In this document: piece after piece, positions 3,228 through 34,873 of the stretch
Numbering within the stretch: the stretch's first letter is position 1
Layout: each line of letters opens with the position of its first letter
Virus record (IMG/VR): IMGVR_UViG_3300037137_001220
Coordinates: 1 to 41,961 of that record
DNA length: 41,961 bases
Reading direction: 5' to 3' (one strand)
Origin: a virus
The notes under the pieces: model-generated
What the model saw: only the letters and a program-made list of their open reading frames with translations
Databases searched by the model: none
Told to the model about the DNA's origin: nothing
Translations under genes and position numbers: made by a program

Positions 3228-6200
3228 TTATGGCCTCGTTGTCATGGTATAAATCCCCGAAATCCAGATTATGGCTGACGCTGCCGAATCATTTTGCACT
3301 GCAATGGTATAGTTTCCAGCGCTTGCTGTGGTGAAATCCTTTGAAACATGTTCCCAGGTGGCATTTTCTGCATCATAATGATTCGGAATTGCGAACCAGT
3401 GCGACACGGCGTTCCAAGACCCGTCCGCTTGCAGATATTTTGCATCTGTCTCGCTATAGATGTAATATTTCGCTGTTGCCGTTCCATTCGATTCCTGGTG
3501 ATGAACAAACAATGTCGATGGTTGCGTAGCCGCGAAATCTGTGACACTTTGGCTTAGCTTTGCTTGGCTGTTGGAGGCATCAATATCAAGAACTGTTGCA
3601 TGGTCTGACAATTCGTAATACGAAAAATACTCCGAACACATGGGGCATTCAGTTCCTTTTCTGTAGATGGTCGATGTTCCTGCCGTAGTTTTGGTCCAAT
3701 GAGTTAAACCATTCGTGAATCCCGGATTTTTTGTACTTCCAGTCGTGGCATAGATTTTTATGCTGTCCACATACAGAGTAGCAATGCTCCCTACAAGTTC
3801 CAAATAATTCCCAATATCGACCACCCAAAGAGAGCCAACGCAAGCTGAAGGTACCATGATTTCTGTGGTGGCCCATTCAGTGGTACTCGCTATTTCTTGT
3901 TGTGTACTGGTAGCCGAACACACTATATATCCACCGCCCCAATCAGATGCGTAAAAAGTGAATTTATTATCAGCGGAGGACTTGTGTGTTAATGTGACCT
4001 TAATTGCTCCTGGCCCTACAGTTAATGAATCTATGGGGCCGCTGGACGCCATAGAGATGTAACCCAAAGTTCCTTCTCCATAACCGAACTTACAACTATA
4101 CGCCCCTTCATTTTTTATTGTCGATTCTTTTTGTACATATTGGGCATCTGGCCATAATGCGGGAGATGTGTCTGTTATCCAATTTTCAAATCCTCCATTT
4201 AGCCCATACGCCACCATCATATCCGTTGTTGCCCAGCCAGTTGCATAGGCGTTGGCTTCAGCCGAGATTTCCCCCTCTGCCACATTCTTTAACGCCGTGA
4301 CAACATAGTAATATTTTGTGGTATTGGTACGACCAGTATGGACAAAATACGTTCCTGTAGTCCCTTCTATCTTGGTCCCCGTTTCTTTCGTCACGCCAGG
4401 AGAAGTTGCCCAGTAAATATTGTATGATGTTACACCAGATTTTCCTATCCATTGAATATAGACAGTCTCGTCATAACCAGATGCCCAGACGTTTTCTGGT
4501 ACAAATCCTGTTATTGCGGAAACCTCATCTGATTCTTCGCTTTCTTCTTCATTGTTTTCTGCTGTGACAACATAGTAATAAGGGGTGCCATTCGTTCGGT
4601 CAGTATGTGCGCGGGGACTTGTTACCCCTCCTATCTTGGTCCCTGTTCCTTTCGTCACTCCAGGAGATGTTGACCAGTAGATATTGTATGATGTGGCGCC
4701 GACAACCGAATCCCACGAAATAGTGATTGTTGTGCCACTTATTTCTGCAAGAATATTATTCGGTGCAAGAATGCCTTGTATACCAGTCATTAACAAACGG
4801 CCATATAAAGGATCGTCATACCAATAGGTCTGATTGTGCGTGCCGCTGTCATAATCTTCATTGTGTGGGCTGCCCGCTTCCTCCGTATAGGCCACAGGCA
4901 CATACGTAGTCACGGACACCGTAGCCGGCAGCGCCGAATATATGCCTGCCGTGTTCTTGGCCTTAATCAGGAACGTATGCACCGCGGGCCGTATGGAATT
5001 GATGCTGTACATGGTGGCCTTGGTACTGGTCAGCAATATGGATTGCGACCAGCTCATTCCATATCGCAGCTCATACAATAGCAGGTCCCTGTCACTCACG
5101 GCCGTCCACTTAAAGTTCACGTCCTGCCGGGCGCACACCGCCTGGAATCCGCCCACATTGGACGGAGGGTCCTCAAGCCCGAGGACTGTGATGTCAATCG
5201 CCGATACAGAGTCGATCGGCTGGGCAACATCATGGTTGGATACGGTGCACAATTTGACCTTGAAGGCTTGTCCCTCGCGCAGATTCTCAATGGTGAATCC
5301 GGTATCCACTTTGCCGAGAGACCGGTAGTTCGCGCCGTTATCCCATGATACATAGGCGGTTACGTGTTTGAAAAATGGATAATATGGAGGCGGATCAAAG
5401 GTGACGATGACGCGGTAATAGGTATTGTCGCCCTGTAGGTAGGATTCCTCGTCATGATCGATATTGACTACGCTCGGCGGCACGGCCAATGGGTCAAAAA
5501 GCGTGGTAGTGAAGATCTCATGGCTGCTGATGTTGATCGAGTCATCATAAATCAACGGATCTTCTTTCCATAGCGTCAGCCCGACCGTATGGTCAGATGC
5601 AGGGGCCGTGGCTGCCACGCGGCACACCTGGTCCGCGAACCCGAACGCGCTGGATGTTACCGTCACCATGTCCCCGGCTTCAAGCGCCTTCAGGCGCGGC
5701 CGGCAGGAAACGAGATATTGGCGATTCATGCGCGACCGATCGATCTTGTAGGCCCCTAGTTTCATGGCCTGGGATACGGCAGTAGTCCCTATCAGAGTCG
5801 TTGCCAGCGTCTTTGTCTGCCCATCATCTTCTACCGCTGTCTGGTCGCTCATGGGCAGCGGTTCGCTCACATATCCCTGGGCAGCATTCACAAAGGTGAT
5901 TTGGGCGGCGTTATAAGTCTCTTTCGTGCATGGCGCGGCGGCACGTTCGCTGTCTTCTATGATGTCGTCATCCCCGATGGTCATTACCGGGGAGTCATAA
6001 TCCAGAATCTTGATCCTAAGCTTGTCGTCAGACCAGATGCGCACGGCGCGGAAGTTTTCCAGAACCCGGTCGAATAGATCGAGGGCCGCCCCACGCTGCT
6101 GTAGGCATCCGTCCCAGTAATATTCATTGGTATCGCACCAGGTGGCCGCGACCGAAATCGCATCATCGTCTATGTAGTCCGTCGGGATTCCCACGCCGGA

Positions 6201-6815
6201 ACGGTTTGTGGCCAAGTCGCGGGCCACAAGGGCGCCGTTTCGGGACCAGGTCGTGGTCTCCGTGCGCGGGTCGTACAGCAGTCGGCCCTTCAGCGTGACC
6301 GTGATTTCCCCCAACCCGGTGAACTTGTCGGGATTGTAATGCAGCATTAGCCTGATATAGGCTGTCCCGCGCATGGCATCCACCCACCGCTCGTCATAGC
6401 CATGCAGTGTGGCATCATAATCCTGGTCGATAGCGCCATTGTGATAGGAATATTCGGCGTCCCCGCCATATTCCGCTATCAGCTTATCCGCGATTCGGAC
6501 CTCTTCCACATCCCCGCACGGACCTTTTCCGAGGATGCCGACCACATGCAGGGTGTCATTATGCAGACCCGTGGTATGCAGGTAGCATTGGTTTATGCCG
6601 AACCTGACTCTTCCATAGGCGAGGGCCACGGGTTGGTCCGAACTCCGGGTGTTGATCATCGTCCCGCGGGCATCCGGCACGCCCGGCGCCGTGGATGCAC
6701 CAATCAATCCCTGGAGCAGCATGGACCCGCCGGCCAGCATCATATAGGTGCCAGTCGTCCCGCCCAGAATTGCGCCGGCAGCGAGGAGACTCCCACCCAT
6801 GACTACGGGAGGCAT
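3228..6815 (-). CDS. Tail tip / host-specificity protein, lambda J-like (1195 aa)
   Basis: This is the central tail-tip protein. The N-terminus has a Gly/Ala-rich hydrophobic stretch (about 1-40) followed by DQPVALAYGRVRFG, a typical start of J-like tip proteins. The hub region extends to about residue 450. FN3-type domains follow, including two tandem copies with SYNIYW and TPYYYVVTA motifs near 690-830. The C-terminal third looks like carbohydrate-binding-type beta-sandwiches and contains a CPMC...H cluster that may bind a metal. It follows the L- and K-like genes, the lambda order L-K-J. Its tip specificity is inferred. Confidence 0.85.
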   Translation of the reverse strand: MPPVVMGGSLLAAGAILGGTTGTYMMLAGGSMLLQGLIGASTAPGVPDARGTMINTRSSDQPVALAYGRVRFGINQCYLHTTGLHNDTLHVVGILGKGPCGDVEEVRIADKLIAEYGGDAEYSYHNGAIDQDYDATLHGYDERWVDAMRGTAYIRLMLHYNPDKFTGLGEITVTLKGRLLYDPRTETTTWSRNGALVARDLATNRSGVGIPTDYIDDDAISVAATWCDTNEYYWDGCLQQRGAALDLFDRVLENFRAVRIWSDDKLRIKILDYDSPVMTIGDDDIIEDSERAAAPCTKETYNAAQITFVNAAQGYVSEPLPMSDQTAVEDDGQTKTLATTLIGTTAVSQAMKLGAYKIDRSRMNRQYLVSCRPRLKALEAGDMVTVTSSAFGFADQVCRVAATAPASDHTVGLTLWKEDPLIYDDSINISSHEIFTTTLFDPLAVPPSVVNIDHDEESYLQGDNTYYRVIVTFDPPPYYPFFKHVTAYVSWDNGANYRSLGKVDTGFTIENLREGQAFKVKLCTVSNHDVAQPIDSVSAIDITVLGLEDPPSNVGGFQAVCARQDVNFKWTAVSDRDLLLYELRYGMSWSQSILLTSTKATMYSINSIRPAVHTFLIKAKNTAGIYSALPATVSVTTYVPVAYTEEAGSPHNEDYDSGTHNQTYWYDDPLYGRLLMTGIQGILAPNNILAEISGTTITISWDSVVGATSYNIYWSTSPGVTKGTGTKIGGVTSPRAHTDRTNGTPYYYVVTAENNEEESEESDEVSAITGFVPENVWASGYDETVYIQWIGKSGVTSYNIYWATSPGVTKETGTKIEGTTGTYFVHTGRTNTTKYYYVVTALKNVAEGEISAEANAYATGWATTDMMVAYGLNGGFENWITDTSPALWPDAQYVQKESTIKNEGAYSCKFGYGEGTLGYISMASSGPIDSLTVGPGAIKVTLTHKSSADNKFTFYASDWGGGYIVCSATSTQQEIASTTEWATTEIMVPSACVGSLWVVDIGNYLELVGSIATLYVDSIKIYATTGSTKNPGFTNGLTHWTKTTAGTSTIYRKGTECPMCSEYFSYYELSDHATVLDIDASNSQAKLSQSVTDFAATQPSTLFVHHQESNGTATAKYYIYSETDAKYLQADGSWNAVSHWFAIPNHYDAENATWEHVSKDFTTASAGNYTIAVQNDSAASAIIWISGIYTMTTRP
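4280..4710 (-). repeat. Two tandem FN3-coding repeats inside the tip gene
   Basis: About 140 bases near 4297..4436 are repeated near 4561..4700 with many matches, including TATTGTATGATGT and GGAGATGTTG/GGAGAAGTTG variants. They encode two successive FN3 domains sharing SYNIYW.TSPGVTK and YYYVVTA. A recent in-frame domain duplication fits. Confidence 0.7.
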
Positions 6816-7393
6816 CTGCGCATCTCCATTACCCAGGGCTGGAGGAGTCTAAAGGGACAGGCCCCCACCCTCATAGTCTCACCATTTACCAGTGTGCAAA
6901 TTTCATTTCCCATATACATCGAAATCATCCATTGCCCGCCTTCTAGATGGCAAAGAATAAGGTCTCCCGCTTGCCTGAACCGGGGATTGATCTCTTCCCC
7001 CAGGGTAGCAAACCAGACTGGAAGCATTTCCAGGTCATAATTGTCCGCATAATTGGTGATGTCCAGATCCCCGGCGCGGCGCACCTGGCGGCCGGCCAGA
7101 TATTGCGCATGGGGCGCAAAAAAAGGCGGAATGTCGCAATCCAATGCCCATAGAAGGGTCAAAATCGAGCTCAGGCAGTCATATCCATATTTCCGACTCA
7201 TCTCCCCGAGCCGGTAGGGCGCATCGAGATAATCCTCGCGCCAGATGTCCGCCAGCCTTTGGTGGATGGTTTTTTTGCCCTGGCGTGGTATCAAGTCTGC
7301 GCCGTCCTTCCCCACCAGATTTGTGGGGCCTTCATAAGATCTGATATCCAGCGGTATCCCCGAAAGTTCACCTCGTTTCCCAGGGCCACGCAT
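6803..7393 (-). CDS. NlpC/P60-like tail assembly protein, lambda K-like, catalytic His apparently lost
   Basis: Follows the L-like gene and overlaps the tip gene by 13 bases, the position of lambda K. Cys73 in KYGYDCLSS matches the nucleophile region of NlpC/P60 peptidases, and GDLILCHLEGGQW (about 143-155) matches the strand before the catalytic His. The expected GH.GIY is here QWMISMYMG, so the His is not visible and the enzyme may be inactive. The longest frame overlaps the L-like gene by about 100 bases. A GTG or TTG start near 7300, after GGGGAAGGA, is more likely. Confidence 0.7.
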   Translation of the reverse strand: MRGPGKRGELSGIPLDIRSYEGPTNLVGKDGADLIPRQGKKTIHQRLADIWREDYLDAPYRLGEMSRKYGYDCLSSILTLLWALDCDIPPFFAPHAQYLAGRQVRRAGDLDITNYADNYDLEMLPVWFATLGEEINPRFRQAGDLILCHLEGGQWMISMYMGNEICTLVNGETMRVGACPFRLLQPWVMEMRRCLP

Positions 7394-7932
7394 CTATCCC
7401 ATGACCGGTCGCACCAGGCCCCGGCCCCGGAATAGGCGCATTCAGCATCCTTAAAGGCCTCTGCCTGGCATGATGGGCCGCATTGCTCGCGCGGTACCTG
7501 CCGTTGCCACCGGGTGGCGAAGATGTTCCTGATCGTGATCTGGGCCTGACGCCGGGTATATTCATATGAGTCAACCACGCCCAAGAAGGCAATGGCTGAT
7601 CCCACTACGGCGCCCAAGTCACTCAAGGCGGCCTCCCTCACCTCGCACCATTTGTCTCTAATCTCTTGCCCCTCCACGATGGCCGTGATCTCCTGGTCGG
7701 CGTTGTCCAGTTCAACAGTGCAAGTATCAATATTCATGTTCAGGCCGCATTGCGCCGGGGAGATCTCCATGCCGCGAGCCTGGTGCTGGTGGCCGGCTGT
7801 CCAAACGTCAACGTCGCAATTGGTATAGTAATAGGTCGATGAGAATTGAAACTTAACGAGATAGACCAGGCGTTGCTCATAGGCATCCAGCACGGCTTGA
7901 AGGGGAACTTCAATGGTCCTCATTCCGGGCAC
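7291..7932 (-). CDS. Minor tail protein, lambda L-like / DUF2163-like (213 aa)
   Basis: The N-terminal half begins EVPLQAVLDAYEQRLVYLV and contains the GMEISPAQ strand typical of tail-tip distal proteins. The C-terminal part has clustered cysteines (EQCGPSC, ECAYSGAGAWCD, WDRC) followed by NEVNFRGYRW, which resembles lambda gpL, whose equivalent region binds an iron-sulphur cluster. It lies between a DUF2460-type gene (13-base overlap) and the K-like gene, matching the usual M-L-K-J tail order. Metal binding here is inferred from the cysteines. Confidence 0.75.
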   Translation of the reverse strand: MPGMRTIEVPLQAVLDAYEQRLVYLVKFQFSSTYYYTNCDVDVWTAGHQHQARGMEISPAQCGLNMNIDTCTVELDNADQEITAIVEGQEIRDKWCEVREAALSDLGAVVGSAIAFLGVVDSYEYTRRQAQITIRNIFATRWQRQVPREQCGPSCQAEAFKDAECAYSGAGAWCDRSWDRCVALGNEVNFRGYRWISDLMKAPQIWWGRTAQT

Positions 7933-8489
7933 CCCACGAAGGTAATCGCACCATATTCATAGAGCAAATAGGCGCGCAAATCCTGGCCCAACTGATCCTC
8001 GAACCGTACTCGCGGCGCCCAGCGGCCTATGAACGATACCGTAATCATGGCCCCCGATCCTGGGGCAGTGGAAAACTCTATCTGATCCAATCCGTCCGCC
8101 CCGGATGCCGCGTGGAAGGTCTTCGTGGTCTGAACATTATTGATATAGGCCGTCGTGGTCACCGATGCCCCGCCGATGCATGGTATGGTAAAGAGGGTCT
8201 CGGCATTATCCCCCCGCGCGACATATTCCTTGACCCAGGTCTCGGCGACTGGCCACGCATAGCGGAAGGCGCTTAGTGCTCCCCTCGCCGTGCCGTTAAA
8301 AAAAGCAAGGACGGAGGCCGCATCCGCCTCAGATAGGTTCATATATTTCAGGGTGATCGTATATCGCGGAAAGATCATGGCCTGGGAACGGTTCTCACGC
8401 CCGGATCTCATGGTAGAGATAATCGTATTCCAGGTCGGACTACGCCGGACTGGATAAGTCAGCCCGGATATCGCCGGGAAAAGGGCCAT
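7920..8489 (-). CDS. DUF2460-family tail protein (189 aa)
   Basis: The N-terminus has the family pattern FPAISGLTYPVRRSPTWNT followed by GRENRSQAM and PRYTITLKYMNLSEADAASV. The end is a short hydrophobic patch (AYLLYEYGAITF). DUF2460 proteins are encoded just after the tape measure and form part of the distal tail in phages and gene transfer agents. Its ATG overlaps the tape-measure stop by one base, so the two are translationally coupled. Confidence 0.8.
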   Translation of the reverse strand: MALFPAISGLTYPVRRSPTWNTIISTMRSGRENRSQAMIFPRYTITLKYMNLSEADAASVLAFFNGTARGALSAFRYAWPVAETWVKEYVARGDNAETLFTIPCIGGASVTTTAYINNVQTTKTFHAASGADGLDQIEFSTAPGSGAMITVSFIGRWAPRVRFEDQLGQDLRAYLLYEYGAITFVGCPE

Positions 8490-11233
8490 TATCGCAAGGC
8501 CTCGATAATGGATGATCGGAAGGCGCCTCCCATTTTTAGATCGCGAATGAGGACGCTTGTGACCGAGGCCCCATTTCTGGTAACCGCCTCATGAAAACTC
8601 TGACTATCCGTGGCCGAGATGTTGTTGATGATCACTACAATGCCCTTTTCGCCCTGTCCCGCATTACCCGCATTACCCGCATTACCCGCATTACCCGCAC
8701 TACCGGCATTAATGCGGTCCAGGGCGGCCACGCCCTGTCGGCTGACTACATATTCGCCACGTTGAAGAATGGCGGGCACCTCGTCGGCCATGAGGCCTCC
8801 CCAATGCATCCGGTATATCGGTCCGCCCCTGTGCATGACGACTCCGCCACCATGAAATTGTCCCGGTGAGAATTCGTTCCACGAGGTGCTGAGCGATGCC
8901 CTTATTCCTCCCATTGCCTGCCCAAATCCTCCCATGATGGTGGGAATAATGGAGGTTACCACTTGTTGAGCGAAGGCCTGGGCAATCGCCCGCTGCATGG
9001 ATTGCAGAAAGCTTGTGAGATAATCCCCGAGGCTCTTCAGCTTCCCTTGCATCACATCGAAAAAGAAATCAGAAAAGGCCGACTCCATGCCCTGGGCCGC
9101 CGCCTTGGCCAGATCCACGCCATTCTGAAAGGTGGTGCGGACATGGTCCATATAGTCGCGCAATCCCTCTTTCCATCCGGCGCCGAGTGAACCCGCCTGC
9201 TCTTTTTGCAATTGCCCCAGTTCCAGGAGCTGTCGCCGTGTGGCTTCGATCGCCTGGGCCTGGGCGTAATACCCGGCCGGGTCTTTGTCCTTTGACTGGG
9301 TAAGCTGGGCGGTCTCCTGAAGGGCGAGCAACCGGCGAAATAAGCTGACACGTTCTTCTATTGCCATATTCTTGCTGATTTCCCGGTTTTGTTCGGCCGT
9401 GTCGATGAGGGACAGTCCCTTCTTGATCTCTGCCTCGGCCTGCTCGGCCGCATATTTCTTCTTGATCTCCTCTGTCATCTGGGAGGCGGTGGCCGCTATC
9501 CGCGTCCGTTCGTTGTCCCGCGCCTCGCCTTCGAGGCCGGTTTTCTTGAGCAGTTCGGTCTGCTCATGCTCGAATGCCTTGACCGCCAGGAGTCTTTTGG
9601 CAAGTTCCGCGCCCTGGGCCTTTGTGAACCCCTCTTCCAGCTTCTCGCGGTTCTGCGCCTGGTTTTTCGCGAGCTTTTCAAGTTCCGCATATTCAAGAGC
9701 GACAAGTAAGGCGGTATCCGCGCCCTTTTTGCGATAGGCGTCTTGTTCCTTCTGTATAGACAGCCTGGTCAGGCCTTCCTCGTTTGTCAGGCCCTGGACG
9801 CGGAGTTCTATTTCCTGATCGGCCTGGTCCTTGCTTTCCGCTCTGCGCTCGTGCGCGGCCGCTTGGCGTTCCGTCTTTCGCGCCGCCGCTTCCGCCTTTC
9901 GAGCGGCAGCCTCGGCCTTTCGTTTTTCCCGCTCAGATATGCCCGGAGTATTCTGCTGATAGGTATAGTCCGATGCGACCTGCTCCGGGACATAGAAATA
10001 TTCCAGATCTGTTTCCGGGTCAGTCGCGATCTGCCTTTGAGCGGCCACCTTCTTCCGCGTTTCCGGGGACTCCTTGTTTAATCTGGCGATAATCTGGTCG
10101 GACAAAGGGGAAAACCCTGACTCTTTCATACCCATATCCAGCAACGCCTTGCTGGATTTAGTCTGTCGTTTGGCAAAAATGTCCATCCAGTACCGGGCCG
10201 CCTCTCCTGTCTTTCCGGGTATCCATTGCACGGCTATGACGAGGGAATAGCCTACCTTGTCTATCAACATGCCCAGGCGATAGAATTCCGCAATGACAGT
10301 CCTTATGGCGCCTGTGAACGTCTGGATGCCTTTCAAAAACTCGGGATTCCATTTAATGGTCGTGGTCTTTTCATCTATGGTCAGGAGATTATCGGCGATA
10401 TCCTTCAGCTCATACTTGATGCCCTCGAACAGAGGCTGGAAAGACATGCCGCCTACCTGCTGCGCGATATCTTTGATGTTCGACAAGAGGCCGGCCCAGG
10501 TGTTTTGCGATTCCATCCCGGCGACGCGAAACGCCGCCAGTTTGTCCATGAGAAAGCTGAAAAGCGACTGCGCGTTTTGCGAATGCTTTTGGATATCCTC
10601 ATTGGTGAGCCCCAGGACGGTAGCGATGCGCGAGGTGCGGGGATTGATGGTCCCGACCAATACCGAGCGGGTTTCTTCTCCAAGTTGATCCAATGAGAGG
10701 CCGATGGCACCGGCCGCCTGCACCATTGCCACCGTAAAATTCTTGACTTGCTGTTTATCCATGCCCTTAGACATAGCCACGGGCAGTGTCTCTTGATAGG
10801 CCCGCACCAACTGATCAAGTGTGGCAATGGTCTGAAAGTTCGCCACCTGGAGTTGGGACATCATGTCTCGTGCATCGACCTGCGCCGCGCGTAGTGCCTT
10901 TTCCGCGTCCAGGGTCTTGCCGGTTTGCGCATCGGCATATTTGCCGTTCGCCATAAAGGCGGCGGCAATGCCCAGGGCGGCAGTTTCAAGCTGTCCCAGG
11001 TAGGCTAATGAGTCTCCGACCACCATCTTGACCGCAAAGGCAGACAAGATCTCCGCGCCCAACCGTCGAAAGGATTGCATGAGGCCGCCTACTCCGGAAT
11101 CCAAATCCCTGCACCCGCCGCGCAGATCGCCGATCTTTGCTCCAGCCCCTTTTAGGTCTTCCTCCAACCCGCTGAAGGCCTCCTTGGTCTTATTCAGGGC
11201 CTCAATGATTACTTGGATTCTATTGTCTGGCAT
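8489..11233 (-). CDS. Tail tape measure protein (914 aa)
   Basis: The largest late gene after the tip protein, starting just after the frameshifted chaperone as tape measures do. Long helical and coiled-coil regions dominate, including a Lys/Glu/Ala-rich segment near 440-600. A hydrophobic block (about 770-800) and the C-terminus (GGVVMHRGGPIYRMHWGGLM and REYVVSRQGVAALD-like turn) match lambda-type tape measure C-termini. It sets tail length and passes through the tail during DNA injection. The 914 residues suggest a tail of medium length, by the usual length rule. Confidence 0.9.
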   Translation of the reverse strand: MPDNRIQVIIEALNKTKEAFSGLEEDLKGAGAKIGDLRGGCRDLDSGVGGLMQSFRRLGAEILSAFAVKMVVGDSLAYLGQLETAALGIAAAFMANGKYADAQTGKTLDAEKALRAAQVDARDMMSQLQVANFQTIATLDQLVRAYQETLPVAMSKGMDKQQVKNFTVAMVQAAGAIGLSLDQLGEETRSVLVGTINPRTSRIATVLGLTNEDIQKHSQNAQSLFSFLMDKLAAFRVAGMESQNTWAGLLSNIKDIAQQVGGMSFQPLFEGIKYELKDIADNLLTIDEKTTTIKWNPEFLKGIQTFTGAIRTVIAEFYRLGMLIDKVGYSLVIAVQWIPGKTGEAARYWMDIFAKRQTKSSKALLDMGMKESGFSPLSDQIIARLNKESPETRKKVAAQRQIATDPETDLEYFYVPEQVASDYTYQQNTPGISEREKRKAEAAARKAEAAARKTERQAAAHERRAESKDQADQEIELRVQGLTNEEGLTRLSIQKEQDAYRKKGADTALLVALEYAELEKLAKNQAQNREKLEEGFTKAQGAELAKRLLAVKAFEHEQTELLKKTGLEGEARDNERTRIAATASQMTEEIKKKYAAEQAEAEIKKGLSLIDTAEQNREISKNMAIEERVSLFRRLLALQETAQLTQSKDKDPAGYYAQAQAIEATRRQLLELGQLQKEQAGSLGAGWKEGLRDYMDHVRTTFQNGVDLAKAAAQGMESAFSDFFFDVMQGKLKSLGDYLTSFLQSMQRAIAQAFAQQVVTSIIPTIMGGFGQAMGGIRASLSTSWNEFSPGQFHGGGVVMHRGGPIYRMHWGGLMADEVPAILQRGEYVVSRQGVAALDRINAGSAGNAGNAGNAGNAGQGEKGIVVIINNISATDSQSFHEAVTRNGASVTSVLIRDLKMGGAFRSSIIEALR
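8658..8711 (-). repeat. 9-bp tandem repeat in the tape-measure gene
   Basis: Four perfect copies of CCCGCATTA and two near copies (CCCGCACTA, CCGGCATTA). They encode a Gly-Asn-Ala run (AGNAGNAGNAGNAG). Copy number could vary by slippage without breaking frame, making a flexible linker before the C-terminal domain. Confidence 0.85.
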
Positions 11234-11863
11234 ATTTCTCGCAGTTTTTGCATGCCCAGTCTAGGAATTCGCCGAATTCCATCCGGCAGCGCTCTTTCTG
11301 GTTTTGGTTGCAGCCTTTCTCGGCCTCAGTTCCACCAAAAAAGGCGATTACTTGTTCGCGGAATCGAACCTCTCGGACTCGGTATTTGATATAGGGGTTG
11401 CATTCTCCGAGGGTGAATCCCCAGAGGATGGCGTCTCGTTTGGTAATGTCTCCCCCGGCGAGGAGGGCGCAGATGTCGTCAACCCAGTCGGCTTTATTCC
11501 TGTCTGTATCTGTGTGGCCATCCCGCTTAGCTTCGACAAAAGAGAAGCTATCGGGTTGCAGACGAAAAAATCCTCTATCACCTGCAATATGGTCTCATGT
11601 GTGATGGAATATTCCAATTCAAGCGCCAAGGCATCGAGGTCCTTGTCTCTCAGGGCGGCGCCCTTTTCAGTCAAGACTATCGCCAGCGCCCCCGGAATCC
11701 TGTCTCCCAGCAGTCCAATCAGCTCCAGGACATCAATCTCTCCGGGTATTTCGAGATCCTGCGTCCTGCTGATAAGTTGCTTGATTTGCGCCAACACCAG
11801 GGGCTTCTGAATATATTTCTTGCCCCCGACTTCATACTTGAACTCCATAAACACTCCTTTCAA
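11220..11863 (-). CDS. Tail assembly chaperone, -1 frameshift product (G-T type, 214 aa)
   Basis: Starts at the ATG of the 171-aa chaperone and shifts to the -1 frame at T TTT TTC (11570..11564), giving 100 + 114 residues. The -1 frame stays open to TAG at 11220..11222, 14 bases inside the tape-measure start. The added domain reads as natural protein (ADWVDDICALLAGGDITKR, WGFTLGE, paired cysteines CKNCEKYARQ). In lambda and many siphoviruses this fused form binds the tape measure and recruits tube subunits. Layout and slippery site fit closely; efficiency is unknown. Confidence 0.88.
11348..11863 (-). CDS. Tail assembly chaperone, unshifted form (171 aa)
   Basis: Starts MKGVFMEFKYEVGGKKYIQK, has a helical middle (LVLAQIKQLISRTQDLEIP, LELIGLLGDRIPGAL), and ends in a low-complexity Ser/Pro/Thr tail (TTSAPSSPGETLPNETPSSG) read in frame 0 past the slip site. 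It lies between the tail tube and tape measure, where phages encode the G protein. The disordered tail suggests that the conserved information in this stretch is in the -1 frame. The two frames overlap for about 215 bases. Confidence 0.85.
   Translation of the reverse strand: MKGVFMEFKYEVGGKKYIQKPLVLAQIKQLISRTQDLEIPGEIDVLELIGLLGDRIPGALAIVLTEKGAALRDKDLDALALELEYSITHETILQVIEDFFVCNPIASLLSKLSGMATQIQTGIKPTGLTTSAPSSPGETLPNETPSSGDSPSENATPISNTESERFDSANK
11528..11570 (-). promoter_or_regulatory. Programmed -1 frameshift signal (slippery heptamer plus stem-loop)
   Basis: On the minus strand the heptamer T TTT TTC (11570..11564) lies in phase with the GAT TTT TTC codons of the chaperone. A 7-bp stem with a 9-base loop (11528..11550, TAGCTTC/GAAGCTA) begins 13 bases downstream. 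Purine-rich AGAGGA lies just upstream and could act as an internal Shine-Dalgarno stimulator. This is the standard arrangement for the tail chaperone shift. Confidence 0.85.
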
Positions 11864-26547: not shown

Positions 26548-26928
26548 ACAGCACCAGAGCACCACTTTTGCTAATTGCGGTGAAAGTACGTCATAAATTC
26601 GTGGTGCTGTGCTCTTTAATATGCCGACCACAGCACCACCACAGCACCACCACAGCACCACCACAGCACCACCACAGCACCACAACTAACTAACTAAAAC
26701 TATTATAAAAAAGGTGAAAGTGGTGCTGTGGTGCTGTGGTTTTGAAAAAAGCATCCGAAACTTTCCCTGAAAAGGGACAAAAAAAGCCAAAAACCAACAA
26801 AAACTGGAACAAAATCGCAATGTTAAACACAAAAAATGCGCGACAAAACATCAGCGGGTTTACTCCTCCCTTTAGTTGGTTCCTCCGGCCTTCGGCAAAG
26901 ACATTTTGACCATAGCACCACCACAGCC
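26548..26928. other. Iteron array, likely replication origin
   Basis: Five perfect head-to-tail copies of CACAGCACCAC occupy 26629..26683. Exact inverted copies lie at 26601..26611 and, overlapping, at 26720..26730 and 26728..26738. Degenerate copies occur near 26548 and 26914. An AT-rich stretch (26684..26712, TAACTAACTAAAAC and TATTATAAAAAA) adjoins the array like a DNA-unwinding element. The primase-helicase gene ends at 26929. The initiator is not certain; the HTH protein at 29900 is a candidate. Confidence 0.75.
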
Positions 26929-29907
26929 TTATCTCACGATCACCTTCCGGAATTTGTAAAACCTGGTGCCGCGCACAATGCGGTAGAACGGCCCCAGTCC
27001 CTCCTTGGTGATCAATTCCCAGCCACTCTTCTGCAATAAGTGCCTGTCGTTCTTAAAACGCTCCCTGAACACACTGGCATTATGGTATGGATTTCTCAGT
27101 CCATTGTTCTTGCAATAGCGGTCAAATGCCGCCACACAGTCCGCAGATGTCGCTACGAACTCCATGAATGATTGGGAGTAGGATTCCCCGTTTTCATCCC
27201 GTATGGTCTCGGCCTTGGTCTTGACGATCTCCAGGCCATACTCTGGATGCTGGTAGGCAAAAACATCGACGTCATAGCCGGCATAGGGTTCCGCCTTCAA
27301 GTCCTTCATTTTTAGTAGGTACTCGCGCACCAGTCCGTCCAACAGCTTGATGATGTTGTTAGACGATACCTCGGTTTCCTTGGCGCGCGCGTCCTGATAC
27401 TCGATCCATGCCTTCCTGATCTCCCGCTCCCCGAACTCAACCCCGTATAGGAAGTCTTCCTCACCATAGTATTCGATGTATTTTAGGATCCTCTCCAGGA
27501 TGAGCATTAAAATGGCGAGATACTCATCAGTTCGATTTTTGGCATGTCCCTTGTATTCTTTCTTCAAGATGGCGATGTAGTCCTTGCGCCGGGCCAAATT
27601 GGGCAATATCTCTCGCTGTATGAGTTTCAGGATGGATGAAAGGATAAGATCACGATTCTTTACCAAAGCCCTGATAGCCTCATCCTCAATAAAGTCGTCA
27701 GACTTGTTCTTGCTCAAAAACTCCACTTCATAGGCGCGGTTAATCAGCTCGGACTTTGGGAAGGGCTCGATGGCCGTCACGAGCACCAGTCCGCGAGGCT
27801 TTTCCTCCATGGTGTCTGTGTCTGATCCTTGGATCCTCTTTTCCTTCTGCCCGCCGGTGGCTGACAGCAGAAGGAATTTCAACATGGATTTGGTAATATC
27901 GTCTGATTCAAGGTTGTCGATGATCAGCATGGGATTCTGGCTAGCTACAGCATACGCGGCGGCAGTGGAAGGATCTCCGAGGTGCTCATTCCCAAAAACA
28001 AGGATGGAAAGCATCCTAGCCGCCGTGGTCTTTCCCGACGCCGTGGAGCCCGAGAACTTCATTATTGCCATACAGTTTACGAAATCGACCAGGAACGCGG
28101 AAATAAACCAACAAAGCACCAGATATTTCTGTTCCTTATCACAGGTCATATTGTTAAAAATCAGGTCTTTGAGAAACTTCATGCCATCGCGGATGTCTGC
28201 ATCCGGTAAGAAGTTGAACGGCATGATCTTCTTGGAAGATTTCAGCAGGACGCCCTCCTTGTTCAGTCCGTTCGGGATCGCTTCCATGCTATCCTTCGAG
28301 ATCTTCAAAATCATATTATTATGTGAATTCAGGTTGACATAAATGGTGTCTGTAGCGCGGTCCGTGAAAATCCAGGATGCAAGATCAATCTGTTTGCCGG
28401 AATTGAATGCATCGGATGCCAATGCCTCCCATACGGATCGACCCGGCTCCTTAGTGGGCAGCAAATGCGTGGATCTCTTTATCAGCGCATTAAAGGGCCG
28501 ATTATTGCCGATTTCATATATATGGTGATGATAGAGCAAATACACGTGATTGAGCCGATCCCTGAAAAAGCGGCCATTATTTGTAAAATGCTTGTGAATG
28601 ATGGTTGCTATCGTAGAAGGATCAGCATCTCTTCGGTTCGGAAGAACCTCGAGGTACATCGAAATTTCTCGCAACAGGTCGCTGCTCGCTTCGACTTCTT
28701 CCTCAATGGCCTTGCGAGACAGCCCCAGTTCTTCCAACTTCTTCACGTAGACCAGTTTTTCAACTTCCACGAGCCCGGAGATCGCGGAGAACACCTTTCG
28801 CTCCCTGAGGGCCGCAACCTGTTTATCGAGCCCGATCAGTTTCGCTACCTGCCCGATCTCCCAGGTAAGATAGTCCACCGCGTCGACCTGCAGACGTTTT
28901 AGCTCTTTCCGCCGGTCGCCCGAAAACCCCCGCAGATATTCGTCAGGATCCTTCCATGTGTCAGAATAGATGAGGATCCTCACATTGTATCCCGGCCCCT
29001 GCAAGGCCGTCGCTATCCGCCTGGTATAGGTCTCTCCGGCCGAATCGTTATCGAAGAAAAGGTAAAGGTGCTTGTTGATGCAGTGGGTCTTAAGCGACGC
29101 GATCTGGTAGTCAGCCGGCTGTCCGATCAGACCAATCACATGCTTTACGCCGGCGTCCAGTACGCTGAGGGTATCATTTTCCCCTTCGACCAGGATTACT
29201 TCACCGTATTTATGCAGGGCGTTCTGGTTGTAAAAACGCCAGGCTTTGAAGCGGAATTCGTTTGGCAGTTGGTAGGCCACCTGCTTGGCAGGATCCTTCA
29301 TGGTGAAGTGAATCACCTTTTCCCCCTCGTAATGGGGGAAAATAGCCAAATCTTTCCCGAAAAAGTCTGCGAGCACGGCCGCGTCCTTGGTCTTTCTCAT
29401 CTTGCCGAGACCGGACGCCTTGATCTCCTCGTCGGAAAAATTCTTGGATTTCAGGTGATCCACCAGGGCGCCGTCCGACCATCCCACGCGCATCTGACGG
29501 AGCATCTCTTCATCGTGCCCGCGCTTTTCGACGAGATATGAGCGGCCGCCATTCTTCAGAAAGTCCATATGATAATGCGTGGCTGCCTCAATGAAGATCC
29601 TTTCCCGTGTAGTAAGCGATTGATCGCGCTTCTTACGGTCGACCAGCGGGATACCTGCGAGTTCTGCCGCTCGCTTAAGGGATTCGCCCTTTTCGATCTT
29701 GAGATAATGTTCGAGAAAGGTAAATACGTCGCCGGATTCGTCGCATTGAAAGCATTTGTAATGAGAATCCTTGAGGGAAAAGCATTCATGCCCGCTACAA
29801 AAGGGGCACTCTGAAAGGTGCGGACCTTTCATGGTCAGTCCGGTTTCCCGATTGATCACGGAAAGGAGATCCAGACGCTCCTTGATTTCTGAGAAGTCAT
29901 TATTCAT
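26929..29907 (-). CDS. Primase-helicase (992 aa)
   Basis: Phage DNA replication protein. A zinc-binding N-terminus (Cys34, Cys37, Cys52, Cys55 in ECPFC and KCFQC), a DnaG-like TOPRIM region (VEGENDTLS near 239 and FFDNDSAGE near 286), and a C-terminal ATPase with Walker A GSTASGKTT (about 620) and LIIDN as Walker B. It probably primes and unwinds DNA near the iterons directly downstream of its 3' end. Its ATG overlaps the stop of the HTH gene by 8 bases. All key motifs are intact. Confidence 0.9.
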   Translation of the reverse strand: MNNDFSEIKERLDLLSVINRETGLTMKGPHLSECPFCSGHECFSLKDSHYKCFQCDESGDVFTFLEHYLKIEKGESLKRAAELAGIPLVDRKKRDQSLTTRERIFIEAATHYHMDFLKNGGRSYLVEKRGHDEEMLRQMRVGWSDGALVDHLKSKNFSDEEIKASGLGKMRKTKDAAVLADFFGKDLAIFPHYEGEKVIHFTMKDPAKQVAYQLPNEFRFKAWRFYNQNALHKYGEVILVEGENDTLSVLDAGVKHVIGLIGQPADYQIASLKTHCINKHLYLFFDNDSAGETYTRRIATALQGPGYNVRILIYSDTWKDPDEYLRGFSGDRRKELKRLQVDAVDYLTWEIGQVAKLIGLDKQVAALRERKVFSAISGLVEVEKLVYVKKLEELGLSRKAIEEEVEASSDLLREISMYLEVLPNRRDADPSTIATIIHKHFTNNGRFFRDRLNHVYLLYHHHIYEIGNNRPFNALIKRSTHLLPTKEPGRSVWEALASDAFNSGKQIDLASWIFTDRATDTIYVNLNSHNNMILKISKDSMEAIPNGLNKEGVLLKSSKKIMPFNFLPDADIRDGMKFLKDLIFNNMTCDKEQKYLVLCWFISAFLVDFVNCMAIMKFSGSTASGKTTAARMLSILVFGNEHLGDPSTAAAYAVASQNPMLIIDNLESDDITKSMLKFLLLSATGGQKEKRIQGSDTDTMEEKPRGLVLVTAIEPFPKSELINRAYEVEFLSKNKSDDFIEDEAIRALVKNRDLILSSILKLIQREILPNLARRKDYIAILKKEYKGHAKNRTDEYLAILMLILERILKYIEYYGEEDFLYGVEFGEREIRKAWIEYQDARAKETEVSSNNIIKLLDGLVREYLLKMKDLKAEPYAGYDVDVFAYQHPEYGLEIVKTKAETIRDENGESYSQSFMEFVATSADCVAAFDRYCKNNGLRNPYHNASVFRERFKNDRHLLQKSGWELITKEGLGPFYRIVRGTRFYKFRKVIVR

Positions 29908-30525: not shown

Positions 30526-30750
30526 TTAGGGATTACTGAGAATATTGCGCAACTTCCGCCCAATATCACTCTTACCAGGTTGATATCCCTGATGATCCGG
30601 TTCGTGCCAAGGCAACCAAGTACTTGCTTCTTCAACAGCTGCTCGCATTTCTGTTAATTCTTCCGCCATCCGAGCAATATCATCTCGGGTGGCAGCGTCC
30701 GGATTGATTTGCAACATATTAAGTCGTTCTCTCCAAGGTAAGGGCACCAT
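30526..30750 (-). CDS. Small early protein, unknown function (74 aa)
   Basis: ATG 30750 follows GAGGTG at 6 bases. The longer frame upstream runs through an attC site and is not used here. The protein is helical: VPLPWRERLNMLQINPDAAT, then DIARMAEELTEMRAAVEEA, then WLPWHEPDHQGYQPG. No family is recognised. It is probably the native neighbour of the 115-aa gene, separated by the cassette insertion: deleting the array leaves only 32 bases between them. Confidence 0.7.
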   Translation of the reverse strand: MVPLPWRERLNMLQINPDAATRDDIARMAEELTEMRAAVEEASTWLPWHEPDHQGYQPGKSDIGRKLRNILSNP

Positions 30751-30757
30751 AATCTTC

Positions 30758-30846
30758 ACCTCACGTAGAGTTGACCGGCTACGGCCTGGGGAATTCCAGA
30801 AAATCAACCCCGTTTCACGGAGTCCGGTCCAATGAAGGGTTAGCCC
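30758..30846 (-). other. attC site e, closes cassette 5 (last of array)
   Basis: Minus-strand inverse core GGGCTAAC (30846..30839) is complementary to the GTTAGCCC core that starts cassette 5 (31059). The interior shares the CGTTTCACGGAGTCCGGTC half with attC a. The 3' core is degenerate: G then TGAGGTG instead of TTRRRY, as expected if the array joins native phage DNA at a secondary site. Total about 89 bp. Confidence 0.8.
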
Positions 30847-31042
30847 TATAGCCATGCCGCAATCGCCTGATAAGCTTGGCATCAAGTAACTCTTGCACCA
30901 CGCCCCTCAAATCTCGCGTAAGATAGAAATGAGAACATATGCTATTCCATGACGTCAGCTTTCCCTGACGATTATTGCGCAGCCAGTGCAATAGAATCTC
31001 TGCGGGCGTTATCTCATGTCCCTTTACTCTTCGTGGCATCAT
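30815..31042 (-). CDS. Cassette 5 protein, small winged-helix-like (75 aa)
   Basis: ATG 31042 follows CTGGAGAG just downstream of the core site. The core of the protein, VKGHEITPAEILLHWLRNNR then VVQELLDAKLIRRLRHGY, looks like a small DNA-binding winged helix: the last strand pair RRLRHGYRANP is typical. The reading frame runs on into attC e and ends NPSLDRTP, as cassette ORFs often do. Regulation of other genes is possible; no target is known. Confidence 0.7.
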   Translation of the reverse strand: MMPRRVKGHEITPAEILLHWLRNNRQGKLTSWNSICSHFYLTRDLRGVVQELLDAKLIRRLRHGYRANPSLDRTP

Positions 31043-31051
31043 TTCTCTCCA

Positions 31052-31143
31052 GGGCTAACGATAGAATTAAGCGTCGGGCACCTGAGCGGCCCAGATAAAT
31101 CGACACGGCTATTCGCCCGTCCGCTTCGATGAATTGTTAGATC
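31052..31143 (-). other. attC site d, closes cassette 4
   Basis: Inverse core GATCTAAC (31143..31136), paired arm AATTCATCGAAGCG / CGCTTAATTCTATC, and core GTTAGCC(C) at the 31052 end, 92 bp. Its interior is nearly the same as attC c (GCCCGTCCGCTTCGATGAAT shared), so cassettes 3 and 4 carry related attC sites. The stop codon TGA of the cassette ORF overlaps the inverse core. Confidence 0.85.
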
Positions 31144-31324
31144 ATCCTGACGCACTAAATACCGGGCATTCCGATTCGTCAAAACTACTGACTTCTGTGA
31201 GGCTGAATGTGCCATCCTCATTATCTTTCCATCCATATACACAACAGATAATAATTACTTGCCCGGTTGCATCAGATTTGAATTTCTCCACATGAATGCA
31301 ACGGCGACAATCCTTTTGGGACAT
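31142..31324 (-). CDS. Cassette 4 protein, cysteine-rich (60 aa)
   Basis: ATG 31324 is preceded by AAAGGA at about 8 bases, 15-20 bases after the core GTTAGATC. The peptide has CRRC (6-9), CCVYGW (about 27-32) and SECPVF (about 52-57), a pattern of five cysteines that could hold a metal. Its TGA sits in the attC inverse core, the usual cassette layout. No family identified. A small adaptor or redox protein is only a guess. Confidence 0.6.
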   Translation of the reverse strand: MSQKDCRRCIHVEKFKSDATGQVIIICCVYGWKDNEDGTFSLTEVSSFDESECPVFSASG

Positions 31325-31338
31325 TTTTTCATTCCTTT

Positions 31339-31430
31339 GATCTAACTGGTTGGATTAAGCGGCGGGCACCTTGGCGGCCCAAAAAAATCGACATGGCTAT
31401 TCGCCCGTCCGCTTCGATGAATTGTTATCT
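31339..31430 (-). other. attC site c, closes cassette 3
   Basis: Inverse core AGATAAC (31430..31424), complementary to the GTTATCT that starts cassette 3 at 31783. Stem arm AATTCATCGAAGCG pairs with CGCTTAATCC. Core GTTAGATC is at the 31346 end. Length about 92 bp. Very similar to attC d, differing mainly at the core edges as expected for recombined sites. Confidence 0.85.
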
Positions 31431-31765
31431 GAAACCCACGCTAAAAGTCTCGACAAGACATCTTTCGATGTATGCCCGTCACACCAGGGAGCACACTCCC
31501 TGGTACGAGTGCCGCCACCGTCTAACAGTTTCCATAGAGGGAGGGGGAGATGATACGTGATGGAACCGGATGGTAAATCAATACCGGCCAAAAACCAACC
31601 GGGATAGCTTGTGCCATCGTTGTGTTTTGGGGCCCTCCATGTATATCCGGGCATTTGTCTCATTAAGGCGATAAATAACACACATCTATGTTCATATAAT
31701 TCATCGAATGTATGATATCCGTCTGACACCTTCCCGGTCTCACACTCCACGGTCAACGTTCCCAT
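31397..31765 (-). CDS. Cassette 3 protein, resembles a recurrent phage hypothetical family (122 aa)
   Basis: ATG 31765 shortly after core GTTATCT with GGAGAAA upstream. Motifs SDGYHTFDELYEHRCVLFIA, TWRAPKHNDG, GWFLAGIDLP, ITYHLPLPLWKLLD and WCDGHTSKDVL recur, as I remember them, in uncharacterised proteins of many tailed phages. Function is unknown. The frame continues into attC c, ending NNSSKRTGE. A phage-type gene in an integron cassette is notable: it suggests exchange between phage genomes and cassette pools. Confidence 0.75.
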   Translation of the reverse strand: MGTLTVECETGKVSDGYHTFDELYEHRCVLFIALMRQMPGYTWRAPKHNDGTSYPGWFLAGIDLPSGSITYHLPLPLWKLLDGGGTRTRECAPWCDGHTSKDVLSRLLAWVSDNNSSKRTGE

Positions 31766-31776
31766 TAAGTTTCTCC

Positions 31777-31868
31777 AGATAACGGTTTGCGAATCAGCCG
31801 CGCCGCCACCGACGATCCAAGAAAATCAAACCCCATTCCTCGGCGTCGGTTGCATTCGCTGGTTAGGC
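31777..31868 (-). other. attC site b, closes cassette 2
   Basis: Inverse core GCCTAAC (31868..31862), complement of core GTTAGGC at the cassette 2 start (32135). Arms CAGCGAATGCAACCG and CGGCTGATTCGCAAACC pair through GCGAAT/ATTCGC. The core is GTTATCT at 31777..31783. Its centre is unlike the other two attC groups. The TAA of the ORF overlaps the inverse core. Confidence 0.85.
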
Positions 31869-32105
31869 TTCCTCAAACTGCTTCAGCTCTGCCGTAATTG
31901 CCTCCCGCAACGCTTCCAATGCCGCCCTTTGCGCATGCGGATGCGTGCATCCTCCGCCGTTTCTGACAAACACGCATTCATCGTCTTCAGCGGGCGGCTC
32001 GACATAAAATCGTGCGAGCGTACAGTGCTCGCCAACACAGTCATAACCAGCAAAAAAATCCCCATCATAAAGGGTGGCGTTGATGTTGGCAGTCCTCCTT
32101 GCCAT
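31863..32105 (-). CDS. Cassette 2 protein, unknown function (80 aa)
   Basis: I choose ATG 32105, five bases after a strong AAAGGAGG; the longer frame to 32189 runs through attC a. The protein starts MARRTANINATLYDGDFFAG, includes GEHCTLARFYVEPPAEDDEC and GGGCTHPHAQRAALEALRE and ends in a helix. Cysteines and histidines (DCVGEHC, GGGCTHPH) could bind a metal. No family is recognised. The stop TAA lies in the attC inverse core. Confidence 0.7.
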   Translation of the reverse strand: MARRTANINATLYDGDFFAGYDCVGEHCTLARFYVEPPAEDDECVFVRNGGGCTHPHAQRAALEALREAITAELKQFEEA

Positions 32106-32128
32106 CACATCCTCCTTTCCGTCTCTCT

Positions 32129-32217
32129 GCCTAACGGTTGAATTGACCGGCTCCGGCCCGTGACGACCGCAAAACCGACATCGTTTCACGGAGTCCGGTC
32201 TAATGAATTGTTAGGAC
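32129..32217 (-). other. attC site a, closes cassette 1
   Basis: Inverse core GTCCTAAC (32217..32210), exact complement of GTTAGGAC at the array's 5' edge. Arms AATTCATTAGACCGG / CCGGTCAATTCAACC pair, with an inner GACTCCGTGA against TCACGGGCCGGAG. Core GTTAGGC is at 32135..32129. About 89 bp, closely related to attC e. Confidence 0.88.
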
Positions 32218-32416
32218 GCTTTTGATAAACTCCCTCATCTATTGCTTGCGTTCTATCCTGTCTGCAATGCTCCGCGCAACAATATCCACCATTGTGACTC
32301 GTAATCTCATTGCACCCCGGCAGCGAACATTTGCGTTTTGGTTTTTCTCGGAAATACTTGCCTGGAATGGTTACTCCCAATCCAGCCATTATGCTCCACA
32401 ATGAAAGAGTGCTCAT
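32186..32416 (-). CDS. Cassette 1 protein, zinc-binding motif (76 aa)
   Basis: ATG 32416 lies seven bases after the core GTTAGGAC, in an A-rich run (AAAAAAA) with no clear Shine-Dalgarno. The central motif CSLPGCNEITSHNGGYCC followed by AEHCR is a compact Cys/His cluster typical of small zinc-binding phage or cassette proteins. Residues 1-28 (MSTLSLWSIMAGLGVTIPG) are partly hydrophobic. The frame runs into attC a and ends NNSLDRTP. Function unknown. Confidence 0.65.
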   Translation of the reverse strand: MSTLSLWSIMAGLGVTIPGKYFREKPKRKCSLPGCNEITSHNGGYCCAEHCRQDRTQAIDEGVYQKRPNNSLDRTP

Positions 32417-32439
32417 TTTTTTGTCCTAACACATACTAG

Positions 32440-32473
32440 GCAGAAGAATCATATCCCAATATGATTCTTCTGC
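32440..32473. other. Perfect 15-bp stem with 4-base loop at the array edge
   Basis: GCAGAAGAATCATAT and its perfect complement flank CCCA. It covers the last codons and the TGA (32449) of the 115-aa gene and lies ten bases before the cassette array's 5' core. No T-run follows on either strand, so it is unlikely to be an intrinsic terminator. It may be an RNA stability element or a structure that helped cassette insertion. Confidence 0.75.
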
Positions 32474-32796
32474 GCCTTCGCGTGGAAACCCACTTCCACT
32501 TGCTGGGGACCGGCCGCGATCGTGGCTGCATATTGATCTATGGCCCAACGCATGGCATCGACCTCCACCTTCTGTGCCGCCTTGAATTCCACCAAGCTCT
32601 TGGCGTCCATCTTGCCCCACAGCACATGCAATCGATCGAGGGCTTCAGACACTTTCTGAAATAGTTCAGGATGCCTTTCTTGAAACCAGACCCAGACGTC
32701 GACCAGGTCATGCTTTTTAGCTTTGGCCTCAAGACACAGAACGATCATTTCATCCAGCGCCTTGCTCCTGACTTGGTCATGCCACGTTTCATTCAT
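32449..32796 (-). CDS. Small early protein, unknown function (115 aa)
   Basis: ATG 32796 gives MNETWHDQVRSKALDEM. The frame stays open upstream with protein-like sequence (YYPEGESAATAVQEVRPG) but no normal start codon, so this start is the safest. The protein is mostly helical (VWVWFQERHPELFQKVSEAL, MRWAIDQYAATIAAG) with no signature motif. It lies downstream of the OB-fold-like gene in the early operon. Its stop is inside a perfect hairpin (32440..32473). Confidence 0.7.
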   Translation of the reverse strand: MNETWHDQVRSKALDEMIVLCLEAKAKKHDLVDVWVWFQERHPELFQKVSEALDRLHVLWGKMDAKSLVEFKAAQKVEVDAMRWAIDQYAATIAAGPQQVEVGFHAKAQKNHIGI

Positions 32797-32879: not shown

Positions 32880-33488
32880 TTATACGCCCGGCATCCGGAG
32901 CTTCATTGCATAGGGCTTTATCTCGTTTCCTGAGTCACCATAGAAGGAATCCCCCTCCGAAATCCTGAGACAACCTTTTGCTTCCAATAAGCTGCCAACC
33001 TTGAGCGACGAAATCGTTTTGTCCTCAAAAGTCCAGATCTCAAAGAATTCATCGATAACCTGCCCATCTTCCTGGACCCGATTCAGGAATAGGCCAATCT
33101 TCCCTTCCCCGTCCACGGCCTGGAGCTCCGTGATCTCTCCCAGCAGAATGAATGCCGCCCTGACAACGTTTATCGCCGGAGTGGCCACATTCCAATCAAA
33201 AAAGAAGTAATTGCTGAACCGCTTCCCCTTTTCCTCATTGTCGTATTGTCCGAACATGCCACGGAAATGTAGCAGTAGTTCCCGTGGGTCTGAATCGCAA
33301 TACTGACGCAATTGGTCAATCTTCTTTTGTCCCCAGAGTCGACCGTAGGTCCGAACCTTCCCGAGCGTTTCGTTTGCGCAGTCAATCTCTAAATTGAGAT
33401 AAGGCGTCCCCTTCACCGATTCCTCAAGTTTCAGCTTCTTGACCTTTCCCCAGACATTACCGGCATTGAAGTGTTTGTACTCTTTCAA
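32880..33488 (-). CDS. Likely OB-fold single-strand DNA-binding protein (202 aa)
   Basis: Starts at TTG 33488 after AAAGGAGA, an unusual start codon fixed by this strong ribosome site; the upstream ATG frame is absent. The N-terminal half reads as a beta-barrel (WGKVKKLKLEESVKGTPYLN, LEIDCANETLGKVRTYGRLW), as in SSB-like proteins, and the second half repeats the strand pattern (GQVIDEFFEIWTFEDKTISS). It lies in the replication/early operon. Binding of single-stranded DNA during replication is inferred. Confidence 0.6.
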   Translation of the reverse strand: MKEYKHFNAGNVWGKVKKLKLEESVKGTPYLNLEIDCANETLGKVRTYGRLWGQKKIDQLRQYCDSDPRELLLHFRGMFGQYDNEEKGKRFSNYFFFDWNVATPAINVVRAAFILLGEITELQAVDGEGKIGLFLNRVQEDGQVIDEFFEIWTFEDKTISSLKVGSLLEAKGCLRISEGDSFYGDSGNEIKPYAMKLRMPGV

Positions 33489-34255: not shown

Positions 34256-34873
34256 TCATATCTCCGCCACCCGCTGCATCTCTTCCTTGCTGGGCAGCGT
34301 GTAGACCATGGTGCTGTTCAGGCTCTTGTGCCTCAACTGCTTGCTTGCGAAAAGGAGGGCCTTTTGCCTTTCCTCGTCGGATAGATGACGGCAGTCGGAC
34401 ATGATTCTCTGGGCCTTGGTATGCCTCAGGGCATGGGGAGTGTAGCGCGGTATCCCGGCTGCCGCGCACCACTTATCCATCAGATCGTTGAAGGAACGGA
34501 GGGCGAGCCTCTGGCCCTTCTTGCTTACGAAGAGCGGAGCGTCATCATCCAGGTCCTCTCTCCATTTCCGTTTCAGCTTCCGAAAGCGCAGCAGGATCTC
34601 TTGCATCTCCACCGGGAGATATATGTCGCCAGTGGCGCCCTTCTCGGCGATCCGTGCATTGACAGTGATCTTCTCTTTATCGAGGACGTCCCCGAGGTTC
34701 AGGGCCAGGGCCTCTCCCCTCCGCAGCCCCGTGGCCCGGCACAGCTTCAAAAGGACAAAGTCCCGTTCCGCCTGTCGGTCCTTTTGGTTCTTTAGAAATG
34801 AGAACAGCTTCTTTTCCTCCGCCTCGGTCAGGTAATTGACCCCCGCGTTTGTCTTCATCGTCCCGTTTGTCAT
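34256..34873 (-). CDS. Short tyrosine recombinase, catalytic domain only (205 aa)
   Basis: Carries the complete active-site set: Arg51 (TGLRRGE), Lys78 (AEKGA), His147-x-x-Arg150 (HALR), His182 (LRHKS) and Tyr191 (MVYT). It has almost no N-terminal core-binding domain, unlike XerC/D or integron integrases, and is closer in size to FimB/FimE-type recombinases. GGAGG stands 6 bases before ATG 34873. It is in the early operon between the Lar-like and methylase genes. Substrate unknown. It lacks the extra motif of IntI, so I do not call it an integron integrase. Confidence 0.8.
   Translation of the reverse strand: MTNGTMKTNAGVNYLTEAEEKKLFSFLKNQKDRQAERDFVLLKLCRATGLRRGEALALNLGDVLDKEKITVNARIAEKGATGDIYLPVEMQEILLRFRKLKRKWREDLDDDAPLFVSKKGQRLALRSFNDLMDKWCAAAGIPRYTPHALRHTKAQRIMSDCRHLSDEERQKALLFASKQLRHKSLNSTMVYTLPSKEEMQRVAEI

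Follow-up and report, generated by a model that had tools for sequence, protein, structure and literature searches.

The locus studied here raises the question of how a block of integron gene cassettes came to stand within the early operon of a phage. The window, i.e. the whole stretch of viral DNA that was analysed (41,961 nt), carries on its minus strand a block of 1666 nt made of five such cassettes, inserted between a native gene for a 115-aa protein and a gene for a 74-aa protein. We consider it probable that an integron integrase (IntI) supplied in trans placed the five cassettes in this operon of a temperate-type phage, at a site which is not an attI. The anatomy of the insertion is confirmed and this mechanism is likely, while the empty site is unproven. 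The features of the locus, in the direction of the minus strand, are the following.

32449..32796, minus strand: native phage gene (115 aa), with homologues in L009, L022, L025, L027, L048 and L050
32440..32473: hairpin with a perfect 15-bp stem and a 4-nt loop, 9 nt to the left of the junction
32430..32448, minus strand: native left flank, from the stop of the 115-aa gene to the junction, 19 nt
30764..32429, minus strand: inserted cassette array, five cassettes, 1666 nt
32135..32429, minus strand: cassette 1, ORF 32186-32416 (76 aa; weak match to the HNH-like phrog_144, E 3.8e-5)
32129..32216, minus strand: attC1, R'' TCCTAAC, R' GTTAGGC
31783..32134, minus strand: cassette 2, ORF 31863-32105 (80 aa)
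31777..31868, minus strand: attC2, R'' GCCTAAC, R' GTTATCT
31346..31782, minus strand: cassette 3, ORF 31397-31765 (122 aa; WDGH domain PF25311, E 7e-32)
31340..31430, minus strand: attC3, R'' AGATAAC, R' GTTAGAT
31059..31345, minus strand: cassette 4, ORF 31142-31324 (60 aa)
31053..31142, minus strand: attC4, R'' ATCTAAC, R' GTTAGCC; 85% identical to attC3
30764..31058, minus strand: cassette 5, ORF 30815-31042 (75 aa)
30758..30845, minus strand: attC5, R'' GGCTAAC, R' GTGAGGT; degenerate on the native side only
30751..30763, minus strand: native right flank TGAGGTGAAGATT with a ribosome site, before the 74-aa gene, 13 nt
30526..30750, minus strand: 74-aa gene, with a single homologue detected, in L022 (54% across residues 4-36)

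We observed that both ends of the array are precise. Read along the minus strand, the stop of the 115-aa gene (32449) and the ATG of the 74-aa gene (30750) enclose 19 nt, then the block running from 32429 to 30764, then 13 nt. The G of the first core (32430) marks the left end of the array, whose right end lies directly 3' of the G of the last R' box (30764). A first-pass annotation of this DNA had stated that deletion of 30764..32429 joins TATGTG to TGAGGTG and leaves 32 bases between this stop and this ATG; both statements proved exact to the base, the flanks joined in silico giving the 32-nt spacer TTCTTCTGCCTAGTATGTG followed by TGAGGTGAAGATT. As the letters G and T are common to both junctions, the crossover can be moved one base each way and the joined product is unchanged. 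The annotation had also stressed that the GAGGTG ribosome site remains intact. This is true, but the site lies wholly to the right of the junction, like the ATG, so that neither would be affected by the presence or absence of the array, and they give no evidence for insertion.

The perfect hairpin at 32440-32473 straddles the stop of the 115-aa gene. At the 3' end of the L048 homologue of this gene (6757) there is a different palindrome of 28 nt, unrelated to this hairpin, with a second copy at 11238. Elsewhere in the window, direct and inverted repeats of the GGTGCTGTGGT type are found at 26600-26740, between the primase and a XerC-like gene; near 26190 there is also a palindrome of the G-run/C-run type.

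The cassettes, which measure 295, 352, 437, 287 and 295 nt from the first to the fifth, all open at a G/TT core (G/TTRRRY-like; the slash marks the crossover point). In all five, the start of the cassette is the exact reverse complement of its own R'' (35 of 35 letters), as is predicted by excision and closure of the circle at the G/TT point. Only one of 120 pairings reaches 35 letters, the runner-up reaching 33, and the R' boxes that come next in the linear order match in only 6, 4, 5, 5 and 4 of 7 letters. The core of the last attC had been described as degenerate only on the native side, and indeed its R'' (GGCTAAC) is good and its R' (GTGAGGT) is native sequence. It has been proposed for other phage CALINs, according to the accessible text of Qi et al. 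2023 (PMC9892861), that such arrays are gained from a host integron through recombination, either homologous or illegitimate. For the present array we hold this to be very improbable, since random ends would not both fall exactly at the G/TT crossover point.

R'' and R' are reverse complementary in the circular cassette, with variation in the R/Y end letters, and the inner arms fold as a long hairpin. Folded with DNA parameters, attC1 to attC5 gave -18.1, -18.2, -16.0, -13.6 and -14.6 kcal/mol in their circular form and -17.6, -14.0, -14.1, -12.2 and -10.9 kcal/mol in their linear form. The energies of the top strands were similar; the bottom strand was not favoured, and a strand preference was not seen. 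The window had no Rfam match, and all five sites escaped a strict RYYYAAC...GTTRRRY scan, which returned no pair. Two models were built, R2 from the five attCs of the window and R3 from those of L022 and L053, the window being excluded. R3 found four of the five window attCs (E 3.9e-9, 8.3e-8, 0.0065 and 0.039; attC4 was missed), with matches on the opposite strand, as near-palindromes allow. The published phage attC in TJE1 was recognised by R2 (E 3.3e-5), a likeness with the phage CALINs of Qi et al. 2023. R2 detected no further attC elsewhere in the window and, at E up to 1, none in L004, L005, L008, L009, L012 and L013. A model-free cassette detector, which found one of the five window cassettes and gave at most one match per shuffle, was dropped as too strict.

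The proteins of cassettes 2, 4 and 5 gave no family match. The protein of cassette 2 has relatives in two viral contigs, L012 (3001-3228, 60%) and L013 (613-837, 43%), in which the R2 search found no attC; phages and cassettes thus share genes, in some direction. When compared with phages, the array DNA gave a single match, at the place of the WDGH cassette and amid the tail genes of a Dolichospermum phage; it gave no match with plasmids, and the DNA of the window no close match with phage records. The five cassettes are co-directional with phage transcription, and four of the five ORFs are preceded by a ribosome-site-like sequence (judged by eye), which suggests that the cassettes are probably transcribed from the phage early promoter.

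Three tyrosine recombinases, of 326, 381 and 205 aa, are encoded in the window. Compared with the curated IntI cut-off of 265 bits, the first scored 57.8 bits and the second 129.3 bits, and the third was unlisted, i.e. no IntI over the cut-off is present anywhere in the window. The XerC-like 326-aa recombinase was considered as the IntI of the array and ruled out (57.8 vs 265 bits); it is native, with homologues in the relatives. As for the 205-aa recombinase (34256-34873), it lacks an N-terminal domain and is 61-71% identical in L009, L025, L052 and L053; it is a conserved early phage gene.

The array has five attC sites, where a CALIN has at least two, and no integron integrase nearby, in a record that may be incomplete; an intI beside the array at an attI, as in a classical integron, is not seen. 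Since no recombinase of the window passes the IntI cut-off, the array is a CALIN, and IntI would have acted in trans or have since been lost. It is of a known kind, phage CALINs being already published: among 10,705 phage genomes, the accessible text of Qi et al. 2023 (PMC9892861) counts 17 CALINs, 3 complete integrons and one In0. Like the CALINs described there in virulent and temperate phages, the array combines clustered attC sites and small co-directional cassettes with no IntI. For those CALINs the authors leave open the route by which they enter phages; the present array ends on both sides at the IntI crossover point.

At what kind of site, then, would IntI have acted? The crossover would have occurred between G and T at the attG-like secondary site TATGTG/TGAGGTG, a single insertion site to which later cassettes would have been added by attC x attC or by repeated attC x attG events. 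The native box GTGAGGT matches GTTRRRY in 6 of 7 letters. An equally good fit is found at 312 of the 11896 minus-strand positions of the window that begin with G (2.6%) and at 200 of the 1706 that begin with GT (11.7%), so that the fit gives modest support to the insertion site. Cassettes at secondary sites were reportedly described by Recchia and Hall in 1995, and precise insertion of cassettes at attG sites, outside attI, is said to have been described by Loot in 2024. The insertion in the window is like these in being precise and outside attI, and unlike them in its target, a phage early operon, and in its GTG core.

The first-pass annotation had spoken of a GTG secondary site rather than an attI. 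That it is not an attI holds, with no IntI over the cut-off in the window, and the crossover point follows a G where neither attI nor attC is present, as at attG and secondary sites. However, GTG departs from the GNT core, a rule reported for IntI1 in the accessible text of PMC10127599; the IntI of this lineage may differ. The site is best termed attG-like, not attG. It could be a GTT-type site that mutated later. Secondary and attG sites are treated, in their accessible parts, in PMC12901181, PMC12444791, PMC11023631 and PMC10127599.

It had further been claimed that removal of the array restores an intact operon. The former adjacency of the two genes is something that we only infer, since no empty site was found and since the flanking genes lie 887 bp apart in L022. 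The empty site was sought via the 115-aa gene, the 74-aa gene, the fused spacer and an alignment of the two 74-aa homologues. The two checks proposed by the annotation gave nothing: the fused 32-base spacer had no match, and an array-free relative with a compact 115-aa/74-aa pair was found nowhere. L022 is the sole relative with both flanking genes, and native small genes and one cassette lie between them. In L048, L022 and L009, the 115-aa homologue has its stop overlapped (ATGA) by the next gene, which is not the 74-aa gene; these relatives are distant, their primases being 58-60% identical, and they neither refute nor confirm the adjacency. In the joined flanks, an ATG overlapping the stop of the 115-aa gene (ATGA) opens a frame of 12 codons into the 74-aa frame. 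We estimate the chance of such an open overlapping frame at about 1 in 5, and the overlap, which is like that in the relatives, is only a hint that the two genes were once neighbours.

Several small genes which follow the 115-aa homologue in L048 and L022 are absent from the window. They would fit a history with two sites: the cassettes would have entered at one, and IntI or another type of recombination would later have deleted the native genes separating the array from the other, so that the flanks were never neighbours. We regard this as quite unlikely, since a single event is simpler and a spacer of 32 nt is ordinary among the gene gaps of the window operon (-32 to 241 nt).

The right end was also considered as not being the original edge of the array. 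The 74-aa gene would then be the gene of a sixth cassette of the platform, whose attC has decayed. Indeed, GTGAGGTG is GTTGAGGTG minus one T, in L022 a truncated attC immediately precedes the 74-aa homologue, which lies in a region flanked on either side by integron cassettes, and no relative without cassettes carries the gene; weak matches to it in G087 (E 0.0013, two stops) and G093 (E 0.008) were dropped. As the other 74-aa homologue also follows an attC, we keep open the membership of this gene in the cassette platform. However, no closing R''-like sequence (ACCTCAC, CCTCAAC and variants) occurs from 30763 to 26929, an interval whose single CTCAC is at 30270, and the next gene starts 23 nt after the 74-aa gene, with the spacing of an ordinary operon. 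A sixth cassette is in our opinion unlikely, and we keep as the preferred reading the insertion of five cassettes by an IntI acting in trans.

We observed a complete integron in one of the relatives, the L022 prophage. It is co-directional and extends from 3756 to 11499, with an IntI at 3756-4811 (373.5 bits vs the cut-off of 265), seven cassettes chained immediately upstream of this IntI, all with exact own-start pairs, and an additional cassette with a truncated attC (GTTCAAC at 11499, GTTGAAC at 11138). Nineteen pairs were listed for L022, of which seven are the counted chain and 12 were dropped as off-chain or due to chance; the eighth cassette (11499/11138) fell outside the pair filter and was found separately. 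The R2 matches in L022 are on the wrong strand, the true orientation being settled by the own-start pairs. In some bacteria, intI can be co-oriented with its cassettes. The L022 IntI gene shares the strand of the cassettes, and about 60 nt separate its end from the primase; judging from this position, it may be read together with the early genes. Like the complete integron of a Shewanella prophage (PMC9892861, Table 1), L022 has intI and cassettes within a prophage; unlike it, as that source describes it in its accessible part, IntI is on the cassette strand and adjoins the phage primase. The attCs of L022 are at most 63% identical to those of the window and of another sequence type, so the two loci do not hold one inherited array. 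In the eight viral records, no IntI over the cut-off was found.

Relatives of the phage were reached via the primase (26929-29907) and then via the 202-aa gene (32880-33488), in viral contigs and bacterial genomes; their primases are 34-62% identical, and the native genes on both sides of the array are syntenic in them. The stretch between the 202-aa gene and the primase can be read in eight loci (the window, L004, L009, L022, L025, L027, L048 and L053), and three of these, the window, L022 and L053, have cassette sites within this interval. The sites counted for L022 and L053 include those in R3; the L022 sites 9915-10004, 10267-10352 and 8157-8255 are not in R3. When loci truncated at one side, excluded from the eight, are included, R3 sites are present in four of 17 loci. 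The fourth is L005, with one site after its primase; this site closes a methyltransferase-like cassette (GTTAAATC at 6435, GATTTAAC at 7219), the 8-mer GATTTAAC being found 4 times in the L005 locus. Both L053 (10179-10770) and L005 (6435-7267) have a single cassette with attC and an ORF that is methyltransferase-like from reading of the sequence (no family search), and the sequence flanking these cassettes appears repeated on both sides. A literature search returned no work that links this phage family with integrons, such a listing being no proof of absence. What would be new is that cassettes recur within a single interval of this family, in one case together with IntI.

The L009 genome is a MAG (record title Deferribacteres bacterium), and its class was covered by a set of 230 genomes. 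The primase is found in 8 of the 230 at E <= 1e-30. IntI over the cut-off is present in 74 of the 230 and in none of 14 control genomes, and 78 of the 230 have sites resembling attC by R2 (E <= 0.01), i.e. the class of the nearest prophages has integrons. The best single R2 site is in G151, a genome in which part of a phage of this kind (58% primase) is also present; this site is only 64-68% identical to the window attCs. From these sequence comparisons, a host integron of this class is a plausible source of the cassettes, the host class of the window phage being deduced from its relatives. The IntI would have been supplied in trans either by a host chromosomal integron or by a co-resident phage relative bearing IntI. 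Against such an insertion we counted that there is no relative with an empty site, that the core is GTG and not GNT, that there is no strand preference and no Rfam match, that the flanking genes are not neighbours in L022 and that the host class comes only from relatives.

We put forward, as a speculative possibility, that the early operon of this family, from the 202-aa gene to the primase, may be a standing landing zone for cassettes. Some members would carry their own IntI, transcribed along with the early genes, and supply it to their kin in trans, and small accessory genes would pass between phages and host integrons in the course of infection. The family offers a natural series for testing, with members having no cassettes, cassettes or a full integron. 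How CALINs enter phages is an open matter; in this locus the two ends are legible to the base and point to IntI acting at a non-attI site. If this is upheld, phages would be a vehicle of integrons and also their workplace.
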